Of a stretch of DNA of 45,658 nucleotides, positions 8,697 through 45,658 are shown piece by piece (positions within the stretch are counted from its first letter, which is position 1; every line of letters starts with the position of its first letter). The notes beneath the pieces were generated by a model that was not told the origin of the DNA, made no database searches, and worked only from the letters and a program-made list of their open reading frames with translations. A program made the translations under genes and the position numbers. The stretch is from NCBI GenBank assembly GCA_009377795.1, contig WHTJ01000029.1:1-45658 (forward strand), written 5' to 3'. The DNA comes from Propionibacteriales bacterium (GTDB lineage: Bacteria > Actinomycetota > Actinomycetes > Propionibacteriales > Nocardioidaceae).

Positions 8697-8715
8697 CCCA
8701 CCACAACTTCGGAGG

Positions 8716-9810: not shown

Positions 9811-9863
9811 CCTAGACGCCGTACGGACACGCCGTCAGCCGCGCTCGGGAACCAGACGCGGAA

Positions 9864-9889
9864 CGGCCAGATGTGCAATCTCGGCGCGA
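9864..9889 (-). repeat. dispersed 26-bp intergenic repeat, copy B
   Basis: Identical over 26 bp, in inverted orientation, to 4671-4696. It lies 11 nt downstream of the stop of the FtsX permease at 9901 and before the aminotransferase start. Confidence 0.8.
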
Positions 9890-9900
9890 AAGAAACGCCG

Positions 9901-12444: not shown

Positions 12445-12445
12445 G

Positions 12446-13276: not shown

Positions 13277-13416
13277 TGACTGGCTCCCTCACCCTGGCCG
13301 GAGACGGCGACCCCCCATCACGGACCGCCAACCCGAAGGCTACCGAGGTGGGCCGAATCGGACACCAGGGTTTTCCCTATCCCGCCCCTGGTCCGTCGAG
13401 CGGCCCTCGGGGGGTG

Positions 13417-13444
13417 TTGAGCCCGGGCGTTGTCACGGTACGGT
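13417..13444 (+). promoter_or_regulatory. promoter for the ParA-like gene, leaderless
   Basis: TTGAGC (13417-13422) and TACGGT (13439-13444) are separated by 16 bp. The GTG start at 13452 lies 7 nt after the -10 box, so transcription would begin at or next to the start codon. This supports the chosen start. Confidence 0.55.
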
Positions 13445-13451
13445 CATCCTC

Positions 13452-14045: not shown

Positions 14046-14156
14046 GCCGCCTCCTCCCTCAGCGTGGCGCGAGCTGGTTGACGTGGCTCATCGCCTCCCC
14101 GAGATTCCTCCCGTGGTAGGACGCGCCGCGGCACATACCCTCGGTACGGTGCCGTC

Positions 14157-15545: not shown

Positions 15546-15610
15546 CCCCCTCCTTCGCGCCGGCCCGCGCGCGACTCTGGGCGTGAGGTCACGATCACGC
15601 TCTCTGCCCG

Positions 15611-15638
15611 TTGACCACCGGGTACGCACCGGTAGGGT
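15611..15638 (+). promoter_or_regulatory. promoter for the Get3-like gene pair, leaderless
   Basis: TTGACC (15611-15616) and TAGGGT (15633-15638) are separated by 16 bp. The GTG at 15646 lies 7 nt after the -10 box. No ribosome-binding site is needed or seen. This decides between the GTG at 15646 and the in-frame ATG at 15583, which lies upstream of the promoter. Confidence 0.65.
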
Positions 15639-15645
15639 CACCGGG

Positions 15646-33000: not shown

Positions 33001-33843
33001 ATGGGACATGGGGATGATGCTGGCTGGGATCTCTACGCGGCTAGGCCACTAACCGATGGTGGTCTCAGGGTCTCCAAGCTGTCCAGCGTCCCCCAAGAGA
33101 CTCGTGTCCGTTGGCTCAATTCGATGGATGCGGTGAGTCACGGTGCGCAGGACCGGTGGCTCTTGGTCGAACGGTCTCACCGGATTTTCACAAGCGAGGT
33201 TCAGAATCTACGTGAGGAGCCATCGATCACTGGGCCTCGTGTCGCGAGACGCGTTAACGACGTCGTCGGAGCAACTTTCGACTGGCTTGGAAGTATGCGG
33301 ATGTACGTGGATCAGCTCGCACACATGATTGGCAACAACAATCCCGAACTGCTCGGAGAATTCCGCAGAAAATGCAGCGAGCAGTACGACTCAAGGTTTG
33401 GCTACCGGTTCTGTTGGCGGCTACGCAACTACGCCCAACACCTGAGCATTCCGATCCACACGGTCGCGTACGGCTCAGGAGGATGGAGCATCTTTGTGTC
33501 ACCCCAGGTTCTCCTCGAGAGATACGACGGGTGGAGCACCCTGCGCGATGAGATGGCCGCCATGGATGGTGATATCGATGTGGTGCAGCAGGTCAACGAA
33601 GCCATGTACGGACTCACGGAAATCGCACGATGGCGCACGATCGAGCAAGCACCAAGTCTGAGGACAGCCCTCCAGGACGCGGAGGCCCTACGCGACCACT
33701 TCCGTCGCGAGTACGACATGCATTTTCCTGTGTATGCCCGATGCGACCCACCTGTTGTGGGCTCAATGATGTCCCTCACCCCGATCAATCTGTGGGAGAT
33801 CGACACTGTACGCGAGCGACTCGCAGACTTGGATCCAATGTGA
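33001..33843 (+). CDS. hypothetical protein with HEPN-type Rx4H motif
   Basis: This 280-aa, mainly helical protein is not of a family I recognise. Residues 140-147 read RLRNYAQH, containing R142-x4-H147, the catalytic pattern of HEPN ribonucleases; a helix precedes it (ELLGEFRRKCSEQYDSRF). A Trp/Tyr-rich beta region (YGSGGWSIFVSPQVLLERYDGW) follows. The codon use is less GC-rich than in the neighbouring core genes (many A- or T-ending codons), which fits recent transfer. CAGACT (32989-32994) lies 6 nt before the ATG. It lies last in the cargo row after PIN and AbiV, pointing to antiphage defence, but this is inferred. Confidence 0.55.
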   Translation: MGHGDDAGWDLYAARPLTDGGLRVSKLSSVPQETRVRWLNSMDAVSHGAQDRWLLVERSHRIFTSEVQNLREEPSITGPRVARRVNDVVGATFDWLGSMRMYVDQLAHMIGNNNPELLGEFRRKCSEQYDSRFGYRFCWRLRNYAQHLSIPIHTVAYGSGGWSIFVSPQVLLERYDGWSTLRDEMAAMDGDIDVVQQVNEAMYGLTEIARWRTIEQAPSLRTALQDAEALRDHFRREYDMHFPVYARCDPPVVGSMMSLTPINLWEIDTVRERLADLDPM

Positions 33844-33914
33844 CCCGCTTATCCGGCGTTACGCATCTACCCATTCCCCGTATGCACTCGGACGGCGCGG
33901 AGGTCTGCGACTGC

Positions 33915-35165
33915 TCACGGCGGGTCCCTTCTGTCAGAGTCCTCTTGCTGGGCCTCATCCTGGGGTGCCCACAGCAGGCCACCCACCCGCTGTGCGATGT
34001 CCTGGCGGATGGGGTCAGTGACGTGCTGGTACCGCTTCACCATCTCCATCGTTGACCAACCCATCACGTCCATGGCGGCCCTGTGTGAGATTCCGAGTGC
34101 GAGCAGCATGGTTGCAGCGGTGTGCCGTGCATCGTGTAGCCGCGCGTCGCGAACACCGGTAGCCTCCAGGAGTGCCTTCCACTCATGGAAGTCACTGTTC
34201 GGGTTTAGCGGCCGCCCGGTCGGGGTCGTGAACACATAGCCCTCGTCGTGCCAAAGCTGACGCGCAGCCTCGCGCTCGCGGCTCTGGGCTTCACGATGCG
34301 TGTTGAGCACCACAATCAACTCCGGCGGCAGCCCGATCGTCCGCCTGCTCGCCTTCGACTTGAGCGGACCAACGTCAGGAGTCACTTGCTTGCGTTGCTT
34401 GCAGAGTCCCGCCTTGCGCCCACACGTGCCGCCGCAGCCGTGCTCGTACTTCGGTCTCAGCCGCGCACGTCTCACTCTAAGCGTGCCCGCGTCGAGGTCG
34501 ATGTCCTCCCACTTGAGCCCAAGGGCCTCCCCCTGGCGTAAGCCGATCGAGAGTGCAATTGCCCAACGAGCAGCGGTTCGGAGTTTGCTTGCCTCGGTGA
34601 GGATCTTCTGTATCTCGTCCACTGAGTAGGGCTCGACCTCCTCATCGTCGGTGAGGCTAGGAGCCTTCGCGATCGCTGCAGGATTGCGTCCGATGTGCTC
34701 TCGTTTCACCGCGACACCCAAGGCGGTTCGGATAGTCCGGTGCACCTGATGTACGCGGCCCGGCTTGCTGCCGTTGGCGAGCATGCGCGCGTACAGCCGC
34801 TCTAGATGTTCAGGCTGCAAACGGTCGAGCTTGTGCGCTCCGATTCCGGGGATGAGATGCACTCGGACAGCTACCTCGTATGCATCGAAGGCGGTCTGCC
34901 GAAGGCTGTCCTTGGCGATGTTGTGCAGCCAGTGAGTCAGCCAGCTCTCCACGGTCCACTTGTGGCCTGGCTTGCGTACGCGGCCGCTGTCGCGCTCCTT
35001 CTCCAGCTCTCTTACCTTGGCGACGGCATCTGCCCGCTTCTTGCGCTTCACGTGGCGGCGGTCGGGTTTGCCGTCGTCGCGGATTCCCATGGTGACGCGG
35101 CCGTGCCACTTGCCGTCGCTGCCGTGGTAGATGCTTGATCGTCCGTTGGGGTTGCGGCGTCCCAT
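33915..35165 (-). CDS. int: tyrosine recombinase integrase
   Basis: This 416-aa site-specific recombinase starts at ATG 35165 (MGRRNPNGRSSIYHGSDGKW). It has the AP2-like arm-binding N-terminus, a SAM-like core-binding domain (WTVESWLTHWLHNIAKDS, about 70-170) and the catalytic domain with Arg near 209 (GLRQGEALGLKWED), H-x-x-R near 340 (HDARHTAATML) and the nucleophile Tyr near 378 (MVKRYQHVTD). It would insert and excise the element at tRNA-Ser. A Cys-rich insertion (HGCGGTCGRKAGLCKQR) follows the first catalytic Arg, a feature of many actinobacterial integrases. It is the last gene of the long minus-strand operon and lies 17 nt after xis. Confidence 0.95.
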   Translation of the reverse strand: MGRRNPNGRSSIYHGSDGKWHGRVTMGIRDDGKPDRRHVKRKKRADAVAKVRELEKERDSGRVRKPGHKWTVESWLTHWLHNIAKDSLRQTAFDAYEVAVRVHLIPGIGAHKLDRLQPEHLERLYARMLANGSKPGRVHQVHRTIRTALGVAVKREHIGRNPAAIAKAPSLTDDEEVEPYSVDEIQKILTEASKLRTAARWAIALSIGLRQGEALGLKWEDIDLDAGTLRVRRARLRPKYEHGCGGTCGRKAGLCKQRKQVTPDVGPLKSKASRRTIGLPPELIVVLNTHREAQSREREAARQLWHDEGYVFTTPTGRPLNPNSDFHEWKALLEATGVRDARLHDARHTAATMLLALGISHRAAMDVMGWSTMEMVKRYQHVTDPIRQDIAQRVGGLLWAPQDEAQQEDSDRRDPP

Positions 35166-35182
35166 GGTCTCGGACTGCTTCC

Positions 35183-35431
35183 TCAGGCCGCTGGGTGCTG
35201 GTCGCGTCGTGCGTTGCGGCGGAGCCTCGCGACGTACTCGTCCAGGCACTCGGCGGGGATGCGACGGAGCCGGCCGACCTGGACGGACTCGATCTCTCCT
35301 GCCGCGATGAGGCTGCACATCAGCGTCCGGCCGATGCCCAGGCGTTCGGCGGCTTCCTCGATCCGCAGCAGCAGCGGGGTGGCGTCGATGTCGGGCGCAC
35401 CTCCTTGCTGCTCATGTGCGGGCATGGTCAT
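35183..35431 (-). CDS. xis: excisionase (helix-turn-helix, Xis)
   Basis: This 82-aa protein starts at ATG 35431, with an alternative ATG 6 nt downstream. It has a winged helix-turn-helix of the MerR/excisionase type: LLRIEEAAERLGIGRTLMCSLIAAGEIESVQVGRLRRIP, followed by the C-terminal helix CLDEYVARLRRNA. Such proteins bend the attachment site DNA and direct Int toward excision. It lies between the replication gene and int, the standard AICE order, and the reading frame ends 17 nt before int. Confidence 0.9.
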   Translation of the reverse strand: MTMPAHEQQGGAPDIDATPLLLRIEEAAERLGIGRTLMCSLIAAGEIESVQVGRLRRIPAECLDEYVARLRRNARRDQHPAA

Positions 35432-35473
35432 TTCATGGGCTCCTTCCTGTCGGGATGGGGTGAGGGGGTCCCT

Positions 35474-35528
35474 ACAAAACCCACAGAACTCACAGAACTT
35501 GAGGTTTTGTGGGTTCCGTGGGTTCTGT
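35474..35528. repeat. iteron-like palindrome 1 (3 + 3 units of 9 bp)
   Basis: Three direct 9-bp units, ACAAAACCC, ACAGAACTC and ACAGAACTT (35474-35500), are followed after one base by three inverted units (35502-35528), whose complements read ACAAAACCT, ACGGAACCC and ACAGAACCC. The structure lies between the DUF3987 stop (35536) and xis. A binding array for the replication protein or a strong hairpin are both possible. Confidence 0.85.
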
Positions 35529-35535
35529 GGGGCTG

Positions 35536-37140
35536 TCACTGCGGGTACTCCTCGTCTGCGGTGGGCCTGGGTGTGGCGTGCACAAAACCCACAGAACCCA
35601 CAGAACTCCGGGGTTTTGTGGGTTCTGTGGATTCTGTGAGGGCGGGGTGGACCTCGTAGACGGCTGAGGGGCGGCCGCCCTTGGGGTTGGGCTCGGCAGG
35701 CTTGTGCCGGATGTGACCGTGCTCGGTGAGCAGGACCAGGGCGGGGTCGAGGTCGGTGACCTTGGCGAACCTGGTTTTGCCGCGTACGGCGTAGAACAGG
35801 TCGCGGCGGGTGAACTCGCGGGAGCGGGTGCGGGTGATCCAGGCGAGGACGTGGCGGGCGTCTTCGAGGTCGGAGTCGGCGCCCATCAGGTCGAACACGG
35901 CGAGGGCTTGGGCGAGGTAGTAGTGTCCCAGCCGCGCGGCAGCGCGGAAGGTCGCTGAGCTGATGGGTTGGTCGTAGCCACTGCGGATATGGGCGGCCAG
36001 GTGCAGCATCCCGGCCAGACGGAGGGTGGCTCCGGCCAGTTTGGCGGCCCAGTCGGTGATGGCGTGCAGTCTGCCGGTGGTGGAATCGAGCTGGGGCTCC
36101 AGCCATTCCTCGAGCTGCCGCAGAGCGGCCCTGGCATCAGCAGTGAGCGTGAGCTGGATGGGCTCGGGCAGCTCGTACAAGGACAGCACGAGGGCCTGCA
36201 GGGTCTCGGCGTAGGCCTGCGTGGTTTCGGCCGGTGGGGGTGGAGTGTCGATCTTGCGCCGTCCGACGGTGTTCTCCGGGAGGGCGTAGAGGATGCGGGC
36301 GAGCACCCCGCTGTCGCGGAAGCCGGGCATGGTGGCGAGCTGGCGGAGCAGTTGGGGTTGCAGGGTGACGCCGAGGGTGAGCGCCGGCCGTTCGACGTAC
36401 TCGGCGTCGCGGCCGATCCGGCCGGTGCGCAGCACGTCACCACCGTGGCCCTTGAGGAAGAGATCCAGGTTGGGTTTGTTGCTGTAGCGGCCGGCGAGGT
36501 CATTGAACACGCCACCCTCGGCCGACAGCACCGCCAGCCGTCCGCCTTGGGCGGCCAGCAACGCGGAGGCGGACTCGGGGGTCTCGTTACCCGCCACGAG
36601 TTGCGGCACCGGCGGCACAGTCAGCGAGTCGGCGTCGATCATGGCGGCGGTGGCCTCGGCCACGGCGTCGGCCTTGCCGGACTTCTCAGCCGCGCGGGCG
36701 GAGTCCTCGGCCTGGGCGCGGGCGACCCTGGCCGCCATCTCAGCCTCAATCCGCATGCCCTTGGCTACATCAACGAGCTGCTTCTCGGCGGCCAGTAGCG
36801 GGGTGGTCAGGGCGCGGAACACGGCGGTCTTGCGGGAACCAGGCGGGAGCGCGACGACGGTGTAGATGTTGACCGGCTCCTCCCAACCAGGACGCGGCAC
36901 CACGAGCGCTTTGCCACCGCAGGCGGCGGAAAGGCACGCGAGCGCGACGCAGCCGGGCAGGTCGGGTGGGGTTTGGGTGGCGTCGGTGACGGCGGCGACG
37001 TACTCCGCGAGCCAGCCCGGTAGCGCCTCGATCGGGAACTCCGGCAGCAGCCGGTGCGCACCCAGCGGCACCGGGTCGGCTTCCCAGCTCGCTGGGTGGT
37101 CGGGTGGTGCCCACTCCGGCATCGGTTGTGCGGCGTTCAT
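35536..37140 (-). CDS. DUF3987 replication protein
   Basis: This 534-aa protein has the DUF3987 layout: N-terminal PGWLAEYVAAVTDATQTPPDL, a P-loop-like PPGSRKTAVFRA (residues 99-110), an acidic LSAEGGVFNDLAGRY region with the following FLKGHGGD motif, and helicase-like segments (TLGVTLQPQLLRQLATMPGF, DSGVLARILYALPE). Such proteins take the place of RepSA/Prim-Pol as replication initiators in many actinobacterial and phage elements. The C-terminal 30 residues contain the tripeptide repeats TES-TEP-TKP and SVG-SVG-FVH, coded by the 9-bp palindrome units 35582-35637. The start ATG 37140 overlaps the stop of the preceding gene by 4 nt. Confidence 0.85.
   Translation of the reverse strand: MNAAQPMPEWAPPDHPASWEADPVPLGAHRLLPEFPIEALPGWLAEYVAAVTDATQTPPDLPGCVALACLSAACGGKALVVPRPGWEEPVNIYTVVALPPGSRKTAVFRALTTPLLAAEKQLVDVAKGMRIEAEMAARVARAQAEDSARAAEKSGKADAVAEATAAMIDADSLTVPPVPQLVAGNETPESASALLAAQGGRLAVLSAEGGVFNDLAGRYSNKPNLDLFLKGHGGDVLRTGRIGRDAEYVERPALTLGVTLQPQLLRQLATMPGFRDSGVLARILYALPENTVGRRKIDTPPPPAETTQAYAETLQALVLSLYELPEPIQLTLTADARAALRQLEEWLEPQLDSTTGRLHAITDWAAKLAGATLRLAGMLHLAAHIRSGYDQPISSATFRAAARLGHYYLAQALAVFDLMGADSDLEDARHVLAWITRTRSREFTRRDLFYAVRGKTRFAKVTDLDPALVLLTEHGHIRHKPAEPNPKGGRPSAVYEVHPALTESTEPTKPRSSVGSVGFVHATPRPTADEEYPQ
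35582..35637. repeat. iteron-like palindrome 2 (3 + 3 units of 9 bp), inside the DUF3987 gene
   Basis: Units ACAAAACCC, ACAGAACCC and ACAGAACTC (35582-35608) are followed after two bases by three inverted units (35611-35637), complements ACAAAACCC, ACAGAACCC and ACAGAATCC. The 9-bp period equals three codons, so the array encodes TES-TEP-TKP / SVG-SVG-FVH on the minus strand. The gap between the two palindromes is 53 bp. Confidence 0.85.
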
Positions 37141-37526
37141 GCGGCGTCTCCTCGACCGGGGTAATCGTTGGGTCGCGGGGTCTTGGCCCACGCAAGTTCG
37201 GCCTCGCGGCGTGCGGCGTAGGAGCGGAGATCGGGAAGGCTGGCGGCGGCTTGGGCGATGTTGACTGCCTGCTGCCAGCGGGCCTCGTCGTCTTCGGCGT
37301 CCAGGGCGGCGTCTGCTGCGCGTTGCGCGTTGAGCTCGGACCGGAGCCGTGCGGGCAGCTCGTCGGTTTCGCTGGCCCAGCATTCGGCCGCTACCACGAC
37401 GCCGGCGACCTTGCGGCGGTCGCCTTCGGGCAGCTCCAGCCATTCACGGCTGCCGTAGGACGGCGGCTGGAGGCCTGCGACCATCCGGCGTGCCCACTCG
37501 CGGCGGGCGCGGCTGGCGCGACTCAT
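37137..37526 (-). CDS. hypothetical AICE protein (possibly DUF2742-like)
   Basis: This 129-aa protein starts at ATG 37526 with a basic N-terminus (MSRASRARREWARRM), then a helical body (EWLELPEGDRRKVAGVVVAAECWASETDELPARL) and an acidic stretch (AADAALDAEDDEARW). No catalytic motif is seen. It lies between the WhiB-like and DUF3987 genes with 4-nt overlaps on both sides, so it belongs to the replication part of the operon. The resemblance to DUF2742 is a memory-based guess. Confidence 0.65.
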   Translation of the reverse strand: MSRASRARREWARRMVAGLQPPSYGSREWLELPEGDRRKVAGVVVAAECWASETDELPARLRSELNAQRAADAALDAEDDEARWQQAVNIAQAAASLPDLRSYAARREAELAWAKTPRPNDYPGRGDAA

Positions 37527-37900
37527 GCCGCCCTCCCCTCGCCACTCTGCCGCCGTCGGTAGGCGTTCACGGCTTCACGACAGGCCGCGCATGGGGTCTC
37601 TCCGCGTCGGCGGTGGGTTCGTTCGCCGCCCGGGGTGCCGTGCTTGATCGGCCTGGGTGCTATGCGTTCGGGTTGCTCGGTTCGCCGCTGCTGGGCGGTA
37701 AGGCCACCCCAAATGCCGTGCGGCTCGCCGCTACGAATCGCGTGGGCACGGCACTCGGCGGCGACCGGGCACGCGGCACAGACGCGTCTGGCGGCTGTGT
37801 TGGGTTCGCCCTTGCGGGGAAAGAAGATCTCTGGATCGACCTGCGCGCACAGCGCGTCGGCCACCCACACGGGCGGTTGTGGCAGTGTCAACATGTTCAT
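37523..37900 (-). CDS. WhiB-like Fe-S protein with extra zinc-binding tail
   Basis: This 125-aa protein has the cluster cysteines C18, C41, C44 and C50 and a GIWGGL turn, as in WhiB regulators. After the turn come a basic stretch and a C-terminal module HGTPGG-xRTHRRRGETPCAAC-REAVNAYRRR, with His and two Cys (C-x2-C) that look like an added zinc-binding element, common in phage and plasmid WhiB proteins. It probably regulates element genes or interferes with host WhiB factors through sigma factor binding. It starts with ATG 37900 and overlaps its neighbours by 4 nt. Confidence 0.85.
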   Translation of the reverse strand: MNMLTLPQPPVWVADALCAQVDPEIFFPRKGEPNTAARRVCAACPVAAECRAHAIRSGEPHGIWGGLTAQQRRTEQPERIAPRPIKHGTPGGERTHRRRGETPCAACREAVNAYRRRQSGEGRAA

Positions 37901-38259
37901 GACCTCCCCTGCCCGATGTGGCCGATGGCGTTGTGGTTGTCCTGCGCCGCCTCGTACGCCCTCGCCAGATAGGTGGTCAGCTCGGCCAGCGAGTCAGCAG
38001 CGGCCGTCATGCGCCGGGTGGGGTCGTGGCCGCCGTCGTCACGCAGCCCGTCGCGTGGCTGGATGGTGGCGGCCTCCAGGTGGCCGCTGATCTCTTGCAG
38101 CGCGATGGTCACCTGGACGAGTGATCCCGCCGCCCGGTACAGGTCGTCCACGTCGAGGTCGTGCTTGGCCCACAGCAGGCGACCGCCTGCGGTGCGCAAC
38201 AGTTCCGTGGCGTGGGCGAGCTGCTCGATGGCGCTCGGCTCAGGATTGGCGGTGGTCAT
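37897..38259 (-). CDS. hypothetical AICE protein, helical
   Basis: This 120-aa protein starts at ATG 38259 (MTTANPEPSAIEQLAHATEL). It is predicted to be helical, with amphipathic helices LLRTAGGRLLWAKHDLDVDDL and LVQVTIALQEISGHLEAA, and TAAADSLAELTTYLARAYEAA toward the C-terminus. No family is recognised. Both ends overlap neighbours by 4 nt (ATGA), so it is translated with the DUF2637-like and WhiB-like genes. Confidence 0.7.
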   Translation of the reverse strand: MTTANPEPSAIEQLAHATELLRTAGGRLLWAKHDLDVDDLYRAAGSLVQVTIALQEISGHLEAATIQPRDGLRDDGGHDPTRRMTAAADSLAELTTYLARAYEAAQDNHNAIGHIGQGRS

Positions 38260-39020
38260 CGTGCGCTCTCCTTCGCGTCGGCTGCGTCGGTAGTGCGGAA
38301 TTCGTGGGCGAGCTTGCGGCCCATGGACGCCGAACAGTCGGCCACCCGCGCTAGCTCCGCGCCGGTGGGGGTGCGCCCCTGGGCGCGCTCGTGCTGCCAG
38401 TGGGCGCGGGCGCGTTCGGTGGCGGTGTCACCGCGCAGCATCGGTGTCACATTCCCGCTGCCCGTAGCGATCGCGGCGGTGGTCGTGCGGGTGTCGGTAG
38501 CGCTGCCGCTACCGCTACCTGTGGGTGCTGCTGGCGGGGTGGCGGTAGCTCTACCGGTGGCGGATGCCGGCTGCTCGGTGGCGGTGATGTTGGCGCGGCT
38601 TCTGGTGCGTTGGCGGCGTGGGGGTAGCGGTGTGGTGCGGATGGCGGCCAGGTGGACGGTGGCGGCGAGGCTGGCGGCGGGGACTGCGCCGACCGCCACC
38701 AGTAGCGGTACCGACACCGCCACCAGTCCGGCGCTGACCGCGTGGCCGGCGGCGTTGAGCGCCAGTGACACCGCCACCGCGCCGAGTGCCACTGTGCGGG
38801 CGTAGCGGCGCGCTGCCTCCGGTGCGGCCTGGTCCAGCCACACCCGCGCCGCTACCGCTGCGAGGGTGTCCACGCAGCCGGGCAGCAGCCAGCCGGTGGT
38901 GTTGCCCCACCCAGCCGCTACCGCCAGGTGGTGTTGTGCACCCGCCGACGCTGCGGCAGCGGCGGTAGCGGTCACGGTTATTCCGGCCCAGGTCCAGGCG
39001 TCGAGGCGTCGGGTGGTCAC
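38256..39020 (-). CDS. DUF2637/Spd-like membrane protein with C-terminal DNA-binding region
   Basis: This 254-aa protein starts at GTG 39020 (VTTRRLDAWTWAG), which overlaps the preceding stop. It has four hydrophobic helices in residues 10-120 (GITVTATAAAAASAGAQHH, TTGWLLPGCVDTLAAVAA, VALGAVAVSLALNAAGHAV, LVAVSVPLLVAVGAVPAAS), the DUF2637 pattern of plasmid spread proteins. A Ser/Thr/Pro-rich linker leads to a C-terminal helix-turn-helix-like part (TPTGAELARVADCSASMGRKLAHEFR), as in SpdB-type proteins. A role in intramycelial spread during conjugation is likely. Confidence 0.8.
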   Translation of the reverse strand: MTTRRLDAWTWAGITVTATAAAAASAGAQHHLAVAAGWGNTTGWLLPGCVDTLAAVAARVWLDQAAPEAARRYARTVALGAVAVSLALNAAGHAVSAGLVAVSVPLLVAVGAVPAASLAATVHLAAIRTTPLPPRRQRTRSRANITATEQPASATGRATATPPAAPTGSGSGSATDTRTTTAAIATGSGNVTPMLRGDTATERARAHWQHERAQGRTPTGAELARVADCSASMGRKLAHEFRTTDAADAKESAR

Positions 39021-39286
39021 GGGAGCCTCACCGGCTTTCCGTTGCGGCGGCGGTCTTCCTCGACGGAGCAGGCCTCGGCCCACTCGTAGTTGTCGGCGGC
39101 GCGGTGCACGGGCTGGGTGGCTGTGACAGCCGCAAGAGCGAGCGTGGCGTGCACCTGGGCCTCGGCGTACAGCGACTCGGAGGCGTGCCAGTCGCTGTCG
39201 TGGCCGCCTTCCTGGTAGTGGCCGAACCAGGATTCGGCCTCGCGCAAGGCGTGCTCGGCGGCCTGGTAGTGCTCGGGTCCGGTCAT
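39017..39286 (-). CDS. hypothetical AICE protein, helical
   Basis: This 89-aa protein starts at ATG 39286 behind a GAGGAGCC site. It is acidic and helical (HYQAAEHALREAESWFGHYQ, SESLYAEAQVHATLALAA) with a basic tail (EEDRRRNGKPVRLP). It resembles tetratricopeptide-like helical repeats found in small AICE proteins, but no family is assigned. It overlaps the DUF2637-like start by 4 nt. Confidence 0.7.
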   Translation of the reverse strand: MTGPEHYQAAEHALREAESWFGHYQEGGHDSDWHASESLYAEAQVHATLALAAVTATQPVHRAADNYEWAEACSVEEDRRRNGKPVRLP

Positions 39287-39342
39287 CGTGCGTGGCTCCT
39301 CTCAGCGTCTAGCGGGTCGTGGCCGGTGCGGTGTGGCCACGC

Positions 39343-39690
39343 TCAGCGGCCGGTTTCGCTGGGGTGGGCGGGTGTGCTGCTAGAACAGGTGTTCGTGCTG
39401 GTCGCGGCCGGGGTTCGGCTGCTAGCGGTGCTGCTAGACCTAGCGGCCTCGGCTGCTAGCGGATCCAGCTCTGCTAGCCGTTCTGCGAGGTTCTCGACCT
39501 GCTTGGTGATCTGCTCGGCCCAGGCGTCCAGCTCGATCGCCAGGTCGCCGAACTCGTTGAGTTCGTCTTGCAGGTCGTCGCAGCGGTCGTGGGCATCGCT
39601 GGCGTGCTGGTAGGCCTCGTGGGCGCTGGCGGCCGCCTCGGCGGCCTCCTGACGCACTTCGTGCAGGTCCCAGGACTGGTCGGCGGTCAT
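39343..39690 (-). CDS. coiled-coil AICE protein
   Basis: This 115-aa protein starts at ATG 39690 (MTADQSWDLHEVRQEAAEAA). Residues 5-80 form one long heptad-containing acidic helix (AHEAYQHASDAHDRCDDLQ, ELDAWAEQITKQVENLAERL). The last 30 residues are Ser/Thr-rich (SSSTASSRTPAATSTNT), coded by DNA unusually rich in CTAG. It overlaps the 48-aa gene upstream by 4 nt. A structural or partner-binding role in the transfer apparatus is possible. Confidence 0.75.
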   Translation of the reverse strand: MTADQSWDLHEVRQEAAEAAASAHEAYQHASDAHDRCDDLQDELNEFGDLAIELDAWAEQITKQVENLAERLAELDPLAAEAARSSSTASSRTPAATSTNTCSSSTPAHPSETGR

Positions 39691-39833
39691 GATGCGCTCC
39701 CGTTCAGGCGGGCGACCCGGTCGGCCGCGTCGTCGGGGTCGTCGTGGTCGGACTCGGCGTGCCAACGGCCGGTGGGGTCGTAGAAGCCGACCGTCCAAAG
39801 GCCGGGTTCGGAGCGGATGTAGACCCAGGTCAT
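39687..39833 (-). CDS. small AICE protein (48 aa)
   Basis: ATG 39833 opens MTWVYIRSEPGLWTVGFYDP, followed by TGRWHAESDHDDPDDAADRV and ending ARLNGSAS. It is a compact beta-strand then helix pattern like small single-domain proteins seen in AICE transfer operons. Both ends overlap neighbours by 4 nt, which makes it a real gene despite its size. Confidence 0.75.
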   Translation of the reverse strand: MTWVYIRSEPGLWTVGFYDPTGRWHAESDHDDPDDAADRVARLNGSAS

Positions 39834-40141
39834 GCCGCGTTCCCTTCGAACAGGTCGGGCTCGACGGCTGCGGGCGCGTGGTGGCGGGTGAGGCGTTCGG
39901 CGTCGAGCAGGCATGCGGTGCACCAGGCGCGCAACTCGGAGGCGGGTAGGTGCGCGGCCGCGGTTGCCGAGAGGGTTGGGTTGGCGGGTGCCACGACGAG
40001 CCGGTGGCGTCGGGTACCGCTGCTGATGGGGCAGCGGCCGTTGCCTCGGGAGTGGGCGCCGCCGCACTCGCCGTGGCATTGGCAGCGGTATCCGGCGTGG
40101 TCGAGCACGTCGACCACGACGCTCATCGATAGGGCGGTCAT
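39830..40141 (-). CDS. Cys-rich HNH-like protein of the transfer operon
   Basis: This 103-aa protein has the motif YRCQCHGECGGAHSRGNGRCPI with three closely spaced Cys pairs and a His, and CTACLLDAERLTRHH near the end. It looks like the zinc-binding treble clef of HNH-related proteins, but catalytic residues are not clearly present. It starts with ATG 40141, overlapping the translocase stop by 4 nt. Confidence 0.7.
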   Translation of the reverse strand: MTALSMSVVVDVLDHAGYRCQCHGECGGAHSRGNGRCPISSGTRRHRLVVAPANPTLSATAAAHLPASELRAWCTACLLDAERLTRHHAPAAVEPDLFEGNAA

Positions 40142-42285
40142 GGGGAGTTCCTTTCGTTGTCGTGTGCGTCATCGAGTGCGCTGCGGGAGAAGCCGCGCCG
40201 GTTGGCTCCGTGGCCGTCGTCGGTGGTGCCCCACACCTGCTCCGGCGTGACGCCGTGCGGTTTGAGTGCGGCCGAGAGTTGGATGGGGGTCCAGCCGGTG
40301 TAGAAGGCGGGCCGCTGCTCGACCAGGCGGGTAAGGATGGTTTCGGACCACAGCCGGTCCTCGCCGGGTGCAAACACGGCGCGGGTGTCGTCCAGGACGC
40401 TGATTTCCTCGCCCTGGGCGGGGGTTTCGCCGGCGGCGACCCCGGACAGGGTTCCGGCGTTGACCCGGGCGGCGTGGGCGCGGTCGATGACCTTCTCGAT
40501 GTCTGCGCCGTCGCCGAGGAAGGTGCGGACGGTGAGGCCTTCCTCGATGTAGCCGGTGTCGTCGGCACCGAGTAGGAGGCCGACGCCCTTGTGGGCGCGC
40601 TGGAACCGGGACGCGTCGTACCCAGCGGAGTAGGACCCGGCACCCAATACGGCTTCGGAGGACTGCCAGGTCATGGTCTTGAGCGCGAACCGGGTGCCGA
40701 TCACGTCCCGCAGCCGGGTGGGCACGGACTTTTCGTCCGGCTTCTGGGTGGCGAGCACGAGGATGATCCCGACGGCGGGGCCGACCTTGGCCAGCTCCGT
40801 CAAGAGGGTGACGATCTCGTCGCCGTAGGTGGGGTCTTCGAAGTAGCGTTGGCACTCGTCGATGCCGATCACGATCGGGTGCAGGCCCTTGGACTTCATC
40901 CGGGCCAGCCGTGGGGTGATCCGCCCGTCGGGACAGAGTTCGACCGGCAGGGTGCCGAGCACGTCGTAGCGGCGGTTCATCTCCTCGCGCAGGTCGAGCA
41001 GGTCGTCGCGGAGGGCCTGTACGACCTGGCTGCGGACCCCGAGCCCGAACCGGTGCGCGATCTTCTCGAACGGTTTCCAGTCCCGGCCGCCCTTGCCGTC
41101 AAAGATGTGCTGCTCGACGTACGGGTCGAGCGCGGCGGCCAGGAGCAGGAGACGTGCGGCCAGGGTCTTGCCCATGCGCGGGATCGCACCGACCAGCACC
41201 GACGTGAACATCAGCAGCAGTTCGATGAGGCGGCCGCGCTGATCCTGCCCGAACGGGAACGGCTCAAACAGCGAAGCTTCGGCCTTCTGCTCGGCCCACG
41301 GCCACCGACCCGACGGCTTGGCGTACGGGTCCTCGTCGGCGACCCACAGTCCGACCCGCCGCGCCGAGCCGGTGGTACCCCGGACGCGTTCCAGCCAAAC
41401 CTGGACCTCATCCAGGTCGAGGCCGGAGGCGATCCGGTCGCGGCGCTTGATCGCCTGCTCCGCGGTCACACCCCAGGGGAGATCGATCACCGCGCGCCAG
41501 CCGTTGCCGTCGCGCTGGATCGGCTGCGGAAACTGGATCGGGTCGTTCTCCTTGCACAACCCGCCAGCGATGAACGCACGCAGCACGACATCGGCGGTCA
41601 GCTTTCGCGCCCGCGGGGTCACCACCGCGTGATCCAAAACGGGTTTGTCCGGCTGACGGCCGGCCAGCCCGAGGACGCCGACCACGGCGGCCAGAACGCC
41701 CAGCTGCACCAGCAGCGGTGTGGCCGGGTGCATCACCAGCCCGAACACCATGCTCGCGCCCACCAGACCGAGGACGCTCATCAGGGCGGCGCGGGAGCGG
41801 ACGGTCTCGCGGTGGCGCATCAGCAGCCGCAGATACTCCCCGGTGTCGCGGGTGTCGACGGCGGCCTGCCGCAGCGGCCGCGACTCGGTATCTGCCACCC
41901 AGCGAGCGGTCGTGCTCACGACGCGGCCGAGGCCGATCGGGGCGCGAGAGCTGACCCGTCCGGCGTACTTCGGAGACCGCAGCACGTGATAGGCGCTGGT
42001 GTGGTAGGCGTGGCGGCCGTACCACCTGGCGGCCGCGACCCGCTCCTCCCGATCACGCAGCCAGGTAGGGACCAGCGGCGGCCGCTCCAGCTCGCGGCGA
42101 CGCCACGGCACCAGCTCGCTCCCCGGCTCCGGTGTGTCGTTGTCGGATGGGTCGACCGCGACGACGGTGCCCGGCTCCATGTTCAGGTCGTCGGCCAGCG
42201 TCTCGGCCTCGTCGTCCACGTCCACGGACCAGCGTTCGACCGCGACCTCGTAGGCCGGTTTGCGTTCCAGCTCCTTGCCCGTCAT
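40138..42285 (-). CDS. FtsK/TraB-type DNA translocase (conjugal transfer)
   Basis: This 715-aa protein starts at ATG 42285 (MTGKELERKPAYEVAVERW). Two transmembrane helices lie near residues 165-205 (ALMSVLGLVGASMVFGLVM, LVQLGVLAAVVGVLGLAG). The motor domain has Walker A GAIPRMGKT near 364, Walker B VIGIDECQRYF near 467, ATQKPDEKSVPTRLRDVIGTRF near 512 and a C-terminal winged helix (LVEQRPAFYTGWTPIQLSAALKPHG) that would read DNA repeats like FtsK gamma. Proteins of this kind pump double-stranded DNA to the recipient hypha and are the only transfer engine of AICEs. Overlaps of 4 nt on both ends place it inside the operon. Confidence 0.92.
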   Translation of the reverse strand: MTGKELERKPAYEVAVERWSVDVDDEAETLADDLNMEPGTVVAVDPSDNDTPEPGSELVPWRRRELERPPLVPTWLRDREERVAAARWYGRHAYHTSAYHVLRSPKYAGRVSSRAPIGLGRVVSTTARWVADTESRPLRQAAVDTRDTGEYLRLLMRHRETVRSRAALMSVLGLVGASMVFGLVMHPATPLLVQLGVLAAVVGVLGLAGRQPDKPVLDHAVVTPRARKLTADVVLRAFIAGGLCKENDPIQFPQPIQRDGNGWRAVIDLPWGVTAEQAIKRRDRIASGLDLDEVQVWLERVRGTTGSARRVGLWVADEDPYAKPSGRWPWAEQKAEASLFEPFPFGQDQRGRLIELLLMFTSVLVGAIPRMGKTLAARLLLLAAALDPYVEQHIFDGKGGRDWKPFEKIAHRFGLGVRSQVVQALRDDLLDLREEMNRRYDVLGTLPVELCPDGRITPRLARMKSKGLHPIVIGIDECQRYFEDPTYGDEIVTLLTELAKVGPAVGIILVLATQKPDEKSVPTRLRDVIGTRFALKTMTWQSSEAVLGAGSYSAGYDASRFQRAHKGVGLLLGADDTGYIEEGLTVRTFLGDGADIEKVIDRAHAARVNAGTLSGVAAGETPAQGEEISVLDDTRAVFAPGEDRLWSETILTRLVEQRPAFYTGWTPIQLSAALKPHGVTPEQVWGTTDDGHGANRRGFSRSALDDAHDNERNSP

Positions 42286-42551
42286 CGGACAGTCCTCCAG
42301 GGGTAGGTGTAGTGGGATGCGTGGCCGAGCGCCCGCAGCGCCGCCTCGGCGGCCCGCAGCCGCGGTGTCCGCCTGGCGGCGGCGCACAGGCCGCACAACG
42401 TCATGCACAGCGGTCCGTATCGGGTGTCGACCTCGTAGGTGGCCAGCTCGACCCGCCGCCGGGGATTCAGGCGTGGGCTGGGGCGGCCGCAACCCTCACA
42501 CGCCCACCCCAGCCGGCACGGGGACGGGCGAAGGTTCCGTACGCGTCTCAT
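42282..42551 (-). CDS. small Cys-rich AICE protein
   Basis: This 89-aa protein starts at ATG 42551. It has cysteine pairs in CEGCGRPSPRLNPRRR and GPLCMTLCGLCAAARR, a probable zinc ribbon, and a basic composition. Overlaps of 4 nt exist with the translocase and the preceding gene. Confidence 0.75.
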   Translation of the reverse strand: MRRVRNLRPSPCRLGWACEGCGRPSPRLNPRRRVELATYEVDTRYGPLCMTLCGLCAAARRTPRLRAAEAALRALGHASHYTYPWRTVR

Positions 42552-42742
42552 GCCACGCGCCCCCGCAGCCAGCCCAGCCGGTCGCCGTGATGCTCAGACG
42601 CGATATGGCCACGCATGCTCAGCTCCGCGGCCTCACGCGTCAGGTACAGCGCGTCCGAGACCGTCTGACAGGCCGGGCACCGCCAGCCGAACCAACCACC
42701 GCCGGCGGCGCTCAGATGTGGTCTTGTGCGGTCACCAAGCAT
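42548..42742 (-). CDS. small zinc-finger-like AICE protein
   Basis: This 64-aa protein starts at ATG 42742 (MLGDRTRPHLSAAGGGWFGW). It has RCPACQ (C-x2-C) and RGHIASEHH, a C2H2-type arrangement, with TREAAELSM between. An upstream in-frame ATG at 42871 would overlap the preceding gene by 140 nt and adds unrelated Trp/Arg-rich sequence, so it is rejected. It overlaps the 61-aa gene by 11 nt. Confidence 0.75.
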   Translation of the reverse strand: MLGDRTRPHLSAAGGGWFGWRCPACQTVSDALYLTREAAELSMRGHIASEHHGDRLGWLRGRVA

Positions 42743-42917
42743 CGGTGTCCACCCCCACCGCTGGGCCGGGGCGGCGCTTCCGGTCCAACACGTCCGCCAG
42801 CTCTGCCGTCGCGTCAGCGGCCTCGGGCTGGCCGTGATCCCACAACCAACCCGCCTGCGCATACAGCGCATCGATCACGTCGTCGGGAACCTGCCTGCGA
42901 TGCGCGCCCGCCATCAC
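42732..42917 (-). CDS. small helical AICE protein (61 aa)
   Basis: ATG 42917 begins MMAGAHRRQVPDDVIDALYA, then QAGWLWDHGQPEAADATAEL and ADVLDRKRRPG. It is mainly one amphipathic helix with a Trp pair. The overlap with the 69-aa gene (ATGA, 42914-42917) supports translation. Function unknown. Confidence 0.7.
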   Translation of the reverse strand: MMAGAHRRQVPDDVIDALYAQAGWLWDHGQPEAADATAELADVLDRKRRPGPAVGVDTDAW

Positions 42918-43123
42918 GAGCCCCCGAACGACTCAGAGATCGCGGCAGCGCCTTGCTCCACGATCTCGTTGATTCCGTTGGTCAAATCCGGCCCGTACGG
43001 TGTCGTCGCGAGCAGCAGCCCGAACACCACACCGAACGCCACCGTCCCGAACTTCCAGCCGCCCTTACGGATCATCAACCACGCGACGAACCCAAAGGCG
43101 ACTACCAATGGCATCGACACCAT
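42914..43123 (-). CDS. small membrane protein, first gene of the transfer operon
   Basis: This 69-aa protein has two hydrophobic stretches (MVSMPLVVAFGFVAWLMI and FGTVAFGVVFGLLLATTPYG) separated by a basic turn RKGGWK, then a soluble tail (LTNGINEIVEQGAAAISESF). It resembles small Spd-like proteins of AICEs. An AAAGGAG site lies 9 nt before ATG 43123. It heads the minus-strand operon and is directly downstream of the duplicated palindromic operator. Confidence 0.8.
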   Translation of the reverse strand: MVSMPLVVAFGFVAWLMIRKGGWKFGTVAFGVVFGLLLATTPYGPDLTNGINEIVEQGAAAISESFGGS

Positions 43124-43146
43124 GACATGTGCTCCTTTCCATCGAC

Positions 43147-43187
43147 TACAGCTATATAGCTGTACCGTATACAGCTATATAGCTGTA
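43147..43187. promoter_or_regulatory. double operator: two copies of an 18-bp palindrome
   Basis: TACAGCTATATAGCTGTA occurs at 43147-43164 and 43170-43187, centres 23 bp apart (about two helical turns), with CCGTA between. The site lies 24 nt upstream of the first transfer gene. It is the expected place of a KorSA- or GntR/XRE-type repressor that keeps transfer genes silent. The regulator could be the HTH protein at 43348 or lie outside the window. Confidence 0.8.
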
Positions 43188-43293
43188 GTCAACGACCACC
43201 CTCTGTCTGGGGTCGCTCCCGCCCTTGTGGCGAGCGCGCAATCAATGTCGCTCGGTCGGCGGGGACCGTCACACCACATAGCGGGATTTCTAA

Positions 43294-43320
43294 GGACGTC
43301 CTGCTATGCTGCGGACGTCC
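43294..43320 (+). promoter_or_regulatory. paired GGACGTCC sites around a -10 box of the HTH-regulator gene
   Basis: The 8-bp palindrome GGACGTCC occurs at 43294-43301 and 43313-43320, flanking TATGCT (43305-43310), a likely -10 box. Binding at both sites would block the promoter, so autoregulation of the 43348 gene is plausible. GGAG (43336-43339) 8 nt before ATG 43348 is the probable ribosome-binding site. Confidence 0.55.
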
Positions 43321-43347
43321 CTAGGCGTCTCGGATTGGAGCCCGGAC

Positions 43348-44118
43348 ATGGCCAACCATCGGCTGCGCGATGCGTTGCTCAATGCGGGAGTCGCTCCGGA
43401 TGAGCTGGCGAGCGATCTCGGTGTTGATCCCAAGACCGTCGAACGTTGGATCACCACGGATCGCGTGCCGTACCCGAAGCACCGGCACAAGATCGCTCTA
43501 CAGGTGGGGGAAAGCGAGAGATATCTCTGGCCGCACGCGCTCGCCGACGGCAAAGCCGCTCAGGTCAGCGAGTCGGAAGTCATCAAGGTCTACGCTCATC
43601 GAAACGACGTACCGCCTGACCTGTGGGACCGGCTCGTGGGGAGAGCGACCGCCTATGTCGACATCCTTGTCTACGTCGGGATGTTCCTAACAGAGAAGGC
43701 CAACCTCGTGCGAACACTCCAGGAGAAGGCCTCGAACGGTGCCCGAGTGCGTCTGCTCTTCGGGGACAGGAACAGCCGCGCCGTCAAGCAGCGCAGCCGC
43801 GAGGAGGGCATTGGCGACGACACGATCTCCGCCAAGATCGACCACGCGCTCTCACATTTCTCGCCCCTCATCGGCCAGCGAGGGATTGAGCTGAGGACGC
43901 ACGGAACCATCCTCTACAACTCGATCTACCGATTCGATGACGAGATGATCGTGAACCCTCACGTCTACGGCACGGTCGCACCACACGCGCCAGCACTGCA
44001 TCTGCGCCGGCTATCTGCCGGCGCCCTGTTCACGACGTACGCAGACAGCTTCACGACAGTCTGGGAAGGCGCGAAAAAGTACGACGGCAAGGGCGGTCGC
44101 GGGCATGCCGAAGCGTGA
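43348..44118 (+). CDS. helix-turn-helix regulator with phospholipase D-like domain (DUF5919-type)
   Basis: This 256-aa protein starts at ATG 43348 (MANHRLRDALLNAGVAPDEL). The N-terminal HTH reads ELASDLGVDPKTVERWITTDRVPYPKHR (about residues 18-46), an XRE-like domain. The C-terminal part (YVDILVYVGMFLTEKANLVRTL, GARVRLLFGDRNSRAV, LRTHGTILYNSIYRFDDEMIVNPHVYG) is like the PLD-fold sensor domain seen in regulators next to AICE Nudix genes. The HKD-type motif is replaced by HGTILYNS, so it is probably not catalytic. It overlaps the Nudix gene by 14 nt and is divergent from the transfer operon, which it may control. Confidence 0.8.
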   Translation: MANHRLRDALLNAGVAPDELASDLGVDPKTVERWITTDRVPYPKHRHKIALQVGESERYLWPHALADGKAAQVSESEVIKVYAHRNDVPPDLWDRLVGRATAYVDILVYVGMFLTEKANLVRTLQEKASNGARVRLLFGDRNSRAVKQRSREEGIGDDTISAKIDHALSHFSPLIGQRGIELRTHGTILYNSIYRFDDEMIVNPHVYGTVAPHAPALHLRRLSAGALFTTYADSFTTVWEGAKKYDGKGGRGHAEA

Positions 44119-44575
44119 CTACTTCAACGACCCGAACGCACCGGTGGCCAACAGCATCGTCGTGGCCGTGTCTGCGGTAGTTCGAAGTGACCGTGGGAAG
44201 CTTCTCCTGATCGAACGCACCGACAACGGTCTGTTCGCGTTGCCCGGCGGCGCACAAGACATCGGCGAGTCCGTCACCGAAGCGGTACGTCGTGAGGTCC
44301 GCGAAGAGACCGGGATTGTGGTTGACGTGATCGGCTTGAGCGGCATCTACTCCGACCCTCGGCACGTCATCGCGTACGACGACGGTGAGGTACGCCAGGA
44401 GTTCTCGCTGTGCTTCCATGCGCGGCCGGTGGGCGGCAGTCTCACAACCAGCTCCGAGTCGCGGCGCGTCCAATGGGTCGACCCGTCCGAGTTGGACGGT
44501 CTTGAGATTCACCCGTCGATGCGGCTGAGGATCGACCACGGCCTCTCCAACACGGATCAGCCCTACTTGGGGTGA
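44105..44575 (+). CDS. Nudix hydrolase (Pif-like in AICEs)
   Basis: This 156-aa protein has a perfect Nudix box G49-x5-E55-x7-R63-E64-V65-x-E67-E68-x-G70-I71 (starting GAQDIGESVTEAVRREV) in the usual beta-alpha-beta setting (LLLIERTDNGLFALPGG before it). It should hydrolyse a nucleoside diphosphate linked to another moiety. In pSAM2 a Nudix protein, Pif, prevents redundant transfer between donor cells, and similar genes are common in AICEs at this position. The ATG overlaps the regulator gene by 14 nt. It is convergent with the HD gene, overlapping its stop by 13 nt. Confidence 0.9.
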   Translation: MPKRDYFNDPNAPVANSIVVAVSAVVRSDRGKLLLIERTDNGLFALPGGAQDIGESVTEAVRREVREETGIVVDVIGLSGIYSDPRHVIAYDDGEVRQEFSLCFHARPVGGSLTTSSESRRVQWVDPSELDGLEIHPSMRLRIDHGLSNTDQPYLG

Positions 44576-45117
44576 CTCACAGCCTCCAGTCGAGAGCGCG
44601 TACGATCGACCGCCCCCAGCAACTCATCCCGCGCCTCGGTGATGAATCGCGTTACCAGGTGGCCGGCCCCATACCGCTCCTTGATCTCCTCCATGCGCGC
44701 GCGAGCGTCGACCTCCTGGCCGTCTGGCGCTGTGGTCAGGTCACAGAACCACAGACCGTCACGGATCGAACCCCGTTCATCGTCAAACCGATCTATCTCC
44801 CTGGAGAGTCCGCGCAACGCTGCTTCGTGCGCCGCGCATGAATGATGCGCGACGAGATGAACCAGCCGCGCCGGTGCACCCACGTCCTGCAGGAAGTACG
44901 CACCGTCGAGCGGGTGAAAGCCAGTGCGCACGAGGTCCGGAGCGTAGCCAACGTCATGCAGGACTGCAGCCGCTTCGAGTAGGTCGCTGTCGGCTCCGGA
45001 GATCGGCCGCAACGTCTGTGCCTGCCGGGCTACGCCTTGCACGTGTGCCCAGCGAGTCGGCAGGAATTCCGCCAATTTCTCTTGCGCGACATTGAAAGCC
45101 CACTCAATCGTTGACAT
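44563..45117 (-). CDS. HD-domain phosphohydrolase
   Basis: This 184-aa protein starts at ATG 45117 (MSTIEWAFNVAQEKLAEFLP). It has H25 (WAHVQGVA), the HD doublet H54-D55 (AAVLHDVGYAP), H68 in TGFHPLDGAYF and HH 91-92 (LVAHHSCAAHEA), the metal ligands of HD hydrolases that act on nucleotides. A D in FCDLTTAPDG adds a later ligand. HD plus Nudix partners are frequent in AICE regulatory regions, possibly to change nucleotide signals. A longer in-frame ORF to 45435 has no support. Confidence 0.85.
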   Translation of the reverse strand: MSTIEWAFNVAQEKLAEFLPTRWAHVQGVARQAQTLRPISGADSDLLEAAAVLHDVGYAPDLVRTGFHPLDGAYFLQDVGAPARLVHLVAHHSCAAHEAALRGLSREIDRFDDERGSIRDGLWFCDLTTAPDGQEVDARARMEEIKERYGAGHLVTRFITEARDELLGAVDRTRSRLEAVSHPK

Positions 45118-45221
45118 GGGACGCACGCTATCGGGCCGTCGACGACTTCCGGCTCGCCCTCGCGGAAGATGGCGTCCGGAGGACGCTATGCGGACAGCGT
45201 TGAAGCTGTAAACTGCGGCCC

Positions 45222-45431
45222 ATGGCCGAGCAGGAGCTTCCGACCGACTGGTGGACGACCGAGGACGTAGCGGCGTACCTCGGCGTGGCCCCCTCGACAA
45301 TCCGCGCGTACGTAACTCGGCACCAGATGCCCGATCCGGACCGCCGCATGGGTCGGCTGCGCTTGTGGCGACCAAAGACCATCGAGCGTTGGCACCAGAG
45401 GCGGCCGAGAGTTGGCCAGGCGGAAGAGTGA
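45222..45431 (+). CDS. small helix-turn-helix DNA-binding protein
   Basis: This 69-aa protein is almost only a winged HTH of the excisionase/MerR type: DWWTTEDVAAYLGVAPSTIRAYVTRHQMP, then GRLRLWRPKTIERWHQRRP. ATG 45222 lies 7 nt after TAAACT (45209-45214), so the mRNA is probably leaderless. It may act as a regulator or second recombination directionality factor of the element, or belong to a neighbouring system across the right edge. Confidence 0.8.
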   Translation: MAEQELPTDWWTTEDVAAYLGVAPSTIRAYVTRHQMPDPDRRMGRLRLWRPKTIERWHQRRPRVGQAEE

Positions 45432-45514
45432 TCACCCACCCGAGTCATCGGATTGTGATCCGACCCCGATCTGCGACACATGTGCGGCAACGGATGCGCG
45501 CCGGTTTCAGTGAT

Positions 45515-45658
45515 CTAGGCAGCCAGCAGGTCGGGGAGAAACGCACGGATCTGCTTGTTATGCCGGTGATCCTTCAGGACATTTCCTCCAGCCGTTGTGG
45601 CTACCTGTCGATGGAGCTGGAGGCCCGGAGATGTCTGTTGTCGATCCCTGTCTGATCC
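45515..45658 (-). CDS. C-terminal end of an unidentified protein (partial)
   Basis: A minus-strand frame enters from the right edge and ends at a TAG (45515-45517) with about 46 open codons. It reads GLQLHRQVATTAGGNVLKDH, then RHNKQIRAFLPDLLAA. No family is recognised; a transposase end is possible. It could be a chance ORF in high-GC DNA. Confidence 0.3.
   Translation of the reverse strand, partial: GSDRDRQQTSPGLQLHRQVATTAGGNVLKDHRHNKQIRAFLPDLLAA

Follow-up and report, generated by a model that had tools for sequence, protein, structure and literature searches.

The question raised by this locus is what two palindromic arrays of short repeats do at the 3′ end of a DUF3987 gene, and which protein reads them. 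The arrays lie at positions 35474–35637 of the window, that is, of the whole 45,658-nucleotide stretch analysed here (Propionibacteriales bacterium, contig WHTJ01000029.1), and each contains three direct and three inverted 9-bp units. Judging from its gene content, the window appears to contain an integrated element, with genes for a tyrosine integrase, an HTH_17 protein, the DUF3987 protein, a WhiB protein, a DUF2637 protein and a weakly matching FtsK/TraB-like protein (Table 1), the last of which has no Pfam match. The tyrosine integrase and the likely excisionase beside a replication gene are an AICE trait. A scan of 13 window proteins revealed no Prim-Pol, and a search for att repeats gave no 14-base word common to 33500–34000 and 36000–45658. 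We consider it probable that these arrays serve as iterons at the origin from which the element replicates, and that their reader is the protein encoded by the gene that they end.

Table 1. Features of the putative element and of its repeat arrays, with positions in the window.
Feature	Position	Strand	Basis or remark
Tyrosine integrase	33915..35165	-	Pfam PF00589, E=4.7e-22
Small HTH_17 protein, likely excisionase	35183..35431	-	Pfam PF12728, E=3e-10
Array 1, three direct 9-bp units	35474..35500	+	Unit starts 35474, 35483, 35492 (phase ACARAACYC)
Array 1, three inverted 9-bp units	35502..35528	-	Unit starts 35502, 35511, 35520
DUF3987 (YfjI-type) gene, proposed initiator-helicase	35536..37140	-	Pfam PF13148, E=4.3e-97; PHROG 2373 'DNA helicase', E=1.7e-62; MCM-like fold; start codon assumed at 37140
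Array 2 (within DUF3987 coding sequence), three direct 9-bp units	35582..35608	+	Unit starts 35582, 35591, 35600
Array 2 (within DUF3987 coding sequence), three inverted 9-bp units	35611..35637	-	Unit starts 35611, 35620, 35629
DUF3987 C-terminal winged-helix domain, residues 418-500, proposed unit reader	35638..35886	-	AF2 models; covariation
Codon of DUF3987 residue 449 (Tyr in the window), predicts unit base 3	35791..35793	-	Covariation
FtsK/TraB-like protein	40138..42291	-	Weak matches to NCBIfam EccC and plasmid_TraB, both below cut-offs

The initial annotation had described two arrays of three direct and three inverted 9-bp units around a 1–2 bp centre, forming palindromes of about 55 bp that lie 53 bp apart. 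Coordinates and counts agree with this: the centre is 1 bp in array 1 and 2 bp in array 2, and the arrays measure 55 bp (35474–35528) and 56 bp (35582–35637), with 53 bp between them. One array had been placed just past the stop codon and the other in coding sequence, where the 9-bp period would be read as tripeptides. The stop codon, at 35536–35538 on the minus strand, places array 1 beyond the end of the gene and array 2 inside the gene, and the translation of array 2 indeed reads TES-TEP-TKP...SVG-SVG-FVH; the encoded tail, residues 508–533, is predicted to be disordered (pLDDT <50). The G+C content is 51% in the arrays and 69% in the stretch between them, and the window has no AT-rich tract between or at the arrays, unlike the phage relatives described below.

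The exact consensus ACARAACYC occurs nine times in the window, eight of them in the two arrays, and the other four of the 12 array units deviate from it by at least one letter. Shuffled windows held a mean of 0.57 copies, and none of 100 reached nine; chance does not yield this pattern. The three-unit pattern is unique to this site in the source assembly (182 contigs) and absent from all other 195 genomes searched in the order, while blastn of one array against plasmids and an Rfam search over 33500–43500 gave no match. In viral contigs the exact window pattern was matched three times, never with a DUF3987 match in the flanking DNA searched. Two of these matches are coding-region repeats without inverted arms and the third is a direct-only repeat in another open frame, so the pattern by itself is not diagnostic. 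Elsewhere in the window, at 11990–12113, TCGAGGGCG occurs in five copies over both strands, probably by chance in GC-rich sequence.

The AF2 model of the DUF3987 protein (58 sequences, pLDDT 89.8, pTM 0.87) matched MCM AAA+ cores in structure comparison, with a Z of 17.6 over 272 residues and an rmsd of 3.7. The top Foldseek match was an MCM as well, with an E of only 1.2e-3 and a TM of 0.37 by query length. The model ends in a C-terminal winged helix; this domain alone gave many tied matches, the first being chain 4 of a human replisome (Z 9.6), which, judged from its label, is probably Mcm4. A sequence search of solved structures returned no DUF3987 relative and no MCM up to E=1, and Pfam assigned DUF3987 alone to the protein, with no MCM family. 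DUF3987 is then a predicted MCM-like AAA+ helicase with a C-terminal winged helix. It shares with MCM helicases this combination of domains in the model, and differs from them in that these sequence searches linked it to no MCM and in that its winged helix is proposed to read sequence.

Searched at E≤1e-60, three families yielded the DUF3987 gene in 51 of 200, 39 of 297 and 58 of 297 of their genomes. Judging by the organisms whose loci served as centres, these families are taken to be Micromonosporaceae, Pseudonocardiaceae and Streptomycetaceae; the first locus set comprised 78 genome loci and nine viral loci. The first homologues fetched carried 9-bp arrays at the same gene end with different units, namely TGACAAAA, GGAGCAAAA and CTGACAGAA. 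The initial annotation had proposed looking beside other DUF3987 genes, and arrays with element-specific units are present at many of them: with a strict finder, 59 of 142 gene ends had an array, compared with 4 of the 710 control windows taken at the same loci. For a looser cluster finder the corresponding counts were 60 of 142 and 81 of 710, and at 60 of the 142 gene ends an array was seen by neither finder; array-less named loci include Nonomuraea, Herbidospora, Actinomadura, Nocardiopsis and Saccharothrix. A strict scan of 87 whole loci (1.6 Mb) gave 37 arrays near the gene end, 12 elsewhere and one in a Markov control. The position at the gene end is therefore conserved. As for the exact placement, three of the 59 strict arrays fall within coding sequence, 16 overlap with the stop codon and 40 lie past it, from which the array seems to act as DNA, and its position inside a gene is incidental. 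The claim of the initial annotation that an origin is embedded in its initiator gene is accordingly supported by the arrays at homologues and by the residue-449 covariation described below, with the reservations that origin activity is inferred and that the embedding (3/59) is incidental.

Several other repeats were observed in these loci. When 48 array-less loci were scanned loosely for clusters, 117 were counted, compared with 10 in Markov sequence; the majority resemble GC-rich coding sequence, and a few sit at the gene end (L060, L157, L158, L162 and L164). In the array-less loci L043 and L056, about 2.7–2.8 kb before the DUF3987 stop, and also in L020 and L049, GCCTCTAGG/CCTAGAGGC repeats directly follow the TraB match and are candidates for a clt or another origin. 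Among L154–L169, several more distant DUF3987 relatives (about 40% identical) have 2+2 arrays at the stop codon, with units like GGTGACAGC and no CARAA core, and the phage relatives L097 and L098 have a large palindrome right past the DUF3987 stop, by eye without a 9-bp period. In L034 (Dactylosporangium roseum, genome G238, contig C1, 7368184–7385881) three tandem copies of the element, spaced by 8127 and 8125 bp, carry identical arrays.

Over 112 loci, same-strand neighbours are spaced, start to start, by 9 bp in 389 of 664 cases, by 11 bp in 49 and by 21 bp in 38. Many Pseudonocardiaceae and Streptomycetaceae loci present nested mirror arrays; in L277, for instance, three units at 9 bp are followed after 67 bp by three at 11 bp and, after 110 bp, by the mirror image. 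The window has a simpler form, with two 3+3 palindromes in succession. Since most of a later set of 46 loci are nested, the strict 3+3 finder sees only three of them, and the cluster finder 38. The distances separating unit groups show a periodicity of about 10.8 bp (jitter p 0.002 when all values are used), which is weaker with distinct values only (p 0.14 for same-strand and 0.036 for opposed gaps), and this periodicity suggests that the groups share one face of the helix.

These designs bear on whether the palindromes are simply transcription terminators or RNA hairpins. RNA folding gives a strong hairpin from each array (z −7.4 and −7.5), and one terminator-like pattern match falls within array 2, although the region has fewer such matches than shuffles. 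Termination as the main role is made unlikely by arrays with direct units only (L007 and L008) and by nested arrays, the unit groups of many relatives being 40–120 bp apart; a hairpin would also leave the 9-bp period and the residue-449 rule unexplained. We regard this explanation as almost certainly wrong.

Across elements the unit has the form X1-X2-X3-X4-C-A-G-A-A, in which X1–X4 vary by element. For the unit alignment, seven of 86 loci (L050, L133, L065, L134, L096, L163 and L102) were dropped because their consensus falls outside the NNNNCNNAA or GACA form, leaving 79; the covariation set comprised 70 C-xx-AA-type loci, 66 of them with a protein of more than 480 residues. In partial Mantel tests given the helicase core, whose permutations ignore phylogeny, the winged helix scored 0.25–0.37 over the loci where the other protein compared was found, against 0.02 for the integrase (n=40), 0.07 for the excisionase (n=33) and −0.23 for TraB (n=37; −0.27 for its last 110 residues). 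By these sequence comparisons, the variable part of the unit tracks the C-terminal winged helix of DUF3987 and not the integrase, the excisionase or TraB. A scan by segments peaked at residues 436–480 (0.36–0.38) and 16–45 (0.45), with values of −0.25 to 0.23 between residues 31 and 435. The N-terminal residues 16–45 thus show a covariation with the unit that equals or exceeds that of the winged helix; given each other, the N-terminal part retained 0.29 and the winged helix 0.17.

The covariation can be followed to one residue and one base. In all 66 loci, residue 449 agrees with base X3: Arg occurs with G (41/41), Thr, Ser, Ala, Tyr or Gln with C (24/24) and Asn with A (1/1). Out of 2691 single-residue classifiers of X3=G, Arg at 449 was the best, with 66/66, and the runner-up reached 58/66. 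The rule was then scored in 46 loci collected after it had been seen, from two further families, using the most frequent X2X3X4 near the gene end; these were kept out of 62 after removal of duplicates and incomplete ends, and 44 of them were new, L180 and L181 having been seen shortly before. Arg occurred with G in 13 of 13 and non-Arg with C in 33 of 33, so that none of the pooled 112 loci is discordant. Because Asn also occurs with C in this later set, only the statement that Arg means G, and otherwise not G, is firm. On a helicase-core tree of 109 rows, built without the long branches L101, L137 and L177, residue 449 and base 3 each change nine times, and seven independent, well-supported pairs are all concordant (sign test p=0.016). 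In the AF2 model, residue 449 is located in the second helix (444–451), not in the usual recognition helix (460–472).

Loci outside these sets were examined too. Among the 80 of 146 gene ends dropped earlier, four have a clear trinucleotide (at least four copies) and all fit, one of them Ala with A; seven have three copies, none against the rule; and 13 with an array score of at least 4 and no such trinucleotide were left unscored. The viral set comprised 78 of 80 loci (without L229, which is cut off, and L259, a twin of L257) plus L182–L184. In its 29 distinct loci with at least three like units, Arg occurs with X3=G in 28 (17 GGA and 11 TGA) and Thr with C in one (CCG); 22 further Arg loci have fewer than three like units. 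No single alignment column accounts for the choice of the viral X2 base (GGA or TGA). Viral loci L230–L235 have Glu at 449, in a gappy, poorly aligned stretch, and two TGA units, below the threshold of three; if the alignment is right, they might be the sole rows seen that contradict the rule.

The arrays might have arisen by chance or through low-complexity expansion of repeats in the tail of a coding sequence, and direct 9-bp repeats do occur alone in unrelated sequence (L326–L328). Such an origin of the arrays is at odds with their inverted arms, their conserved position and units that match a protein residue, and it is contradicted by the later 46-locus set; it can be practically dismissed.

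A second DUF3987 gene is present in the same genome as the window (L013, contig C138, 109–1170 and after), with coding TCCGCAGAA-type units and Ser449. Both its units and this residue differ from those of the window, so that one cell would hold two origins whose predicted specificities differ.

Other proteins of the element might read the arrays instead. Since the excisionase and integrase genes come after the array in the window, the units could be arm sites of these proteins, or an operator of xis-int read by them. The absence of covariation with either protein argues against this, as do L052 and L055, which have near-identical arrays and winged helices and different excisionase families, and those arrays that have no integrase or excisionase gene directly after them. 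Recognition by excisionase or integrase is in our view highly improbable.

Streptomyces clt sites are also short repeats, that of pJV1 consisting of nine 9-bp repeats (PMC3583192), and a TraB-like gene, although weakly matching, is present in the window; the arrays could hence be clt/TRS sites, recognised by the TraB translocase during conjugative transfer. Unit specificity following TraB was rejected on the negative partial Mantel values given above. Some array-bearing loci also have nothing that matches the window's TraB within up to 10 kb a side, where other FtsK-like proteins are possible, and one of these loci has a TrwC relaxase (L021). A role in transfer appears very doubtful.

A more serious alternative accepts that DUF3987 binds the units and takes the site as an operator or copy-control locus (handcuffing, incompatibility) upstream of xis-int, with replication starting elsewhere. 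Covariation of unit and winged helix argues for binding, not for origin use, and in the window, as in several relatives, the array is just upstream of xis-int. On the other hand, xis-int does not directly follow every array. In L021 (Pseudonocardia oroxyli, 3975–16306), genes for a TrwC relaxase, Prim-Pol and DUF3987 with its array are directly followed by Cas3 and Cse1 genes, with no match to the window's TraB nearby; in L035 the array is followed by a LuxR-type gene, and an integrase-domain match lies upstream. In the phage loci L183 and L184 other phage genes come next, and the units flank an AT-rich tract. Of the 12 arrays located elsewhere in the 87 loci, four are similar in kind to those at the gene end (one upstream in L024, two in the tandem copies of L034 and one in L100), which also speaks against this alternative. 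We judge an operator or copy-control site to be unlikely, though less so than the other alternatives.

The same loci favour an origin. The array stays with DUF3987 in L021, next to TrwC and Cas3, and in L035, without int-xis directly after it. Streptococcus phage Javan191 (L183) and phage NatCom_43819 (L184) have TGACAAAA-type units on both sides of the AT-rich tract, right after the gene. An 18.45-kb Streptomyces record annotated as a circular plasmid (NZ_CP107792) has Prim-Pol, DUF3987 and the repeats in order; because xis and int follow the repeats, it may be an excised element. A role for DUF3987 as a helicase in the replication of mobile elements has been predicted (PMC5862659). In PICMI satellites, circular copies become fewer once the primase gene, identified by DUF3987 and DUF5906 profiles, is deleted (PMC10803314). 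A precedent for the design also counts here: according to PMC7581432, SaPI Rep and SCCmec Cch2 use the C-terminal domain to read repeats directly downstream of their own gene. From this organisation and these relatives we infer origin activity. In the mechanism that we propose, the DUF3987 C-terminal winged helix would bind one 9-bp unit (NNNN-CARAA type), with three units per arm; the oppositely oriented arms would assemble two opposed helicase complexes; and these would melt the DNA there and so initiate replication of the excised circle.

Our best reading, by analogy, is an iteron origin directly 3′ of an initiator-helicase gene, organised like the SaPI/PICI rep-ori with another helicase family. 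The kind is already known from SaPIs, as iterons behind the initiator gene that are read by its C-terminal domain (PMC7581432). In PICIs the initiator-helicase gene is followed by an iteron origin, with iteron sets flanking an AT-rich region (PMC6092414). The window and its relatives share the short repeats directly 3′ of the gene, and covariation strongly suggests that the helicase C-terminal domain would read them. They differ in the helicase family, since SaPIbov1 Rep/Cch is assigned to DUF927 and SaPI5 Rep/Cch2 to Primase_Cterm/D5 (PMC7581432), and in having 9-bp units in 3+3 inverted groups that are sometimes coding. The AT-rich region of PICIs also has its counterpart in phages L183 and L184, in contrast to the G+C-rich stretch between the window's arrays.

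Other systems offer partial parallels. The basic replication locus of Streptomyces plasmid pWTY27 is reported as repA, repB (encoding the Prim-Pol RepB) and 300 bp, and its 522-aa RepA binds a neighbouring inverted repeat, about 105 bp long and composed of short repeats in both direct and inverted orientation (PMC3583192). A Prim-Pol accompanied by a protein that binds an adjacent inverted-repeat iteron is a resemblance; the repeats given for pWTY27, GTGGGAAC/TTCCCAC, differ in having no CARAA core. AICEs are integrating elements with an integrase, an excisionase, an FtsK-like transfer protein and a rep gene, a set resembled here with an only weakly matching FtsK/TraB-like protein, and their replication modules are described as RepSA, RepAM/DUF3631 or Prim-Pol with SCO4618-like genes; DUF3987 is not among the replication profiles given in that source (PMC3218068). 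In PLE, the origin and the DNA-binding domain of the initiator RepA_N vary together from one related element to another, as the DUF3987 winged helix and its units do, but that domain is N-terminal, the repeats are three of about 30 bp, and the available text presents no one-residue rule (PMC8263062). No earlier DUF3987 assignment, recognition rule, 3+3 or nested 9/11-bp design or coding array was found in the accessible portions of the open-licence literature, and to that extent these four points are new.

Taken together, the model and the arrays allow a wider reading, which we put forward tentatively and hold to be somewhat less than an even bet. DUF3987 would be a widespread bacterial class of self-loading MCM-like helicases without a separate initiator. 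Its origins would be mirror-symmetric and helically phased (three outer 9-bp units, 67–68 bp, three inner 11-bp units, the centre and the mirror image), placing two opposed rings like the MCM double hexamer, and specificity would drift by the Arg449-G rule. If so, several such elements could coexist per cell, as the two in the window's genome may.

For a family still called of unknown function, these results give a likely function, initiator-helicase, and a likely location of the origin in many integrating elements of actinobacteria, in a plasmid and in some phages. If pWTY27 RepA (GU226194) is a DUF3987 protein, the binding reported for it would already show binding by a family member, a possible precedent. 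The one-residue, one-base rule is testable by gel shift and, if it is true, the origin specificity and compatibility of these elements would be readable from sequence. DUF3987 proteins would then also be small bacterial models of MCM-style helicase loading.
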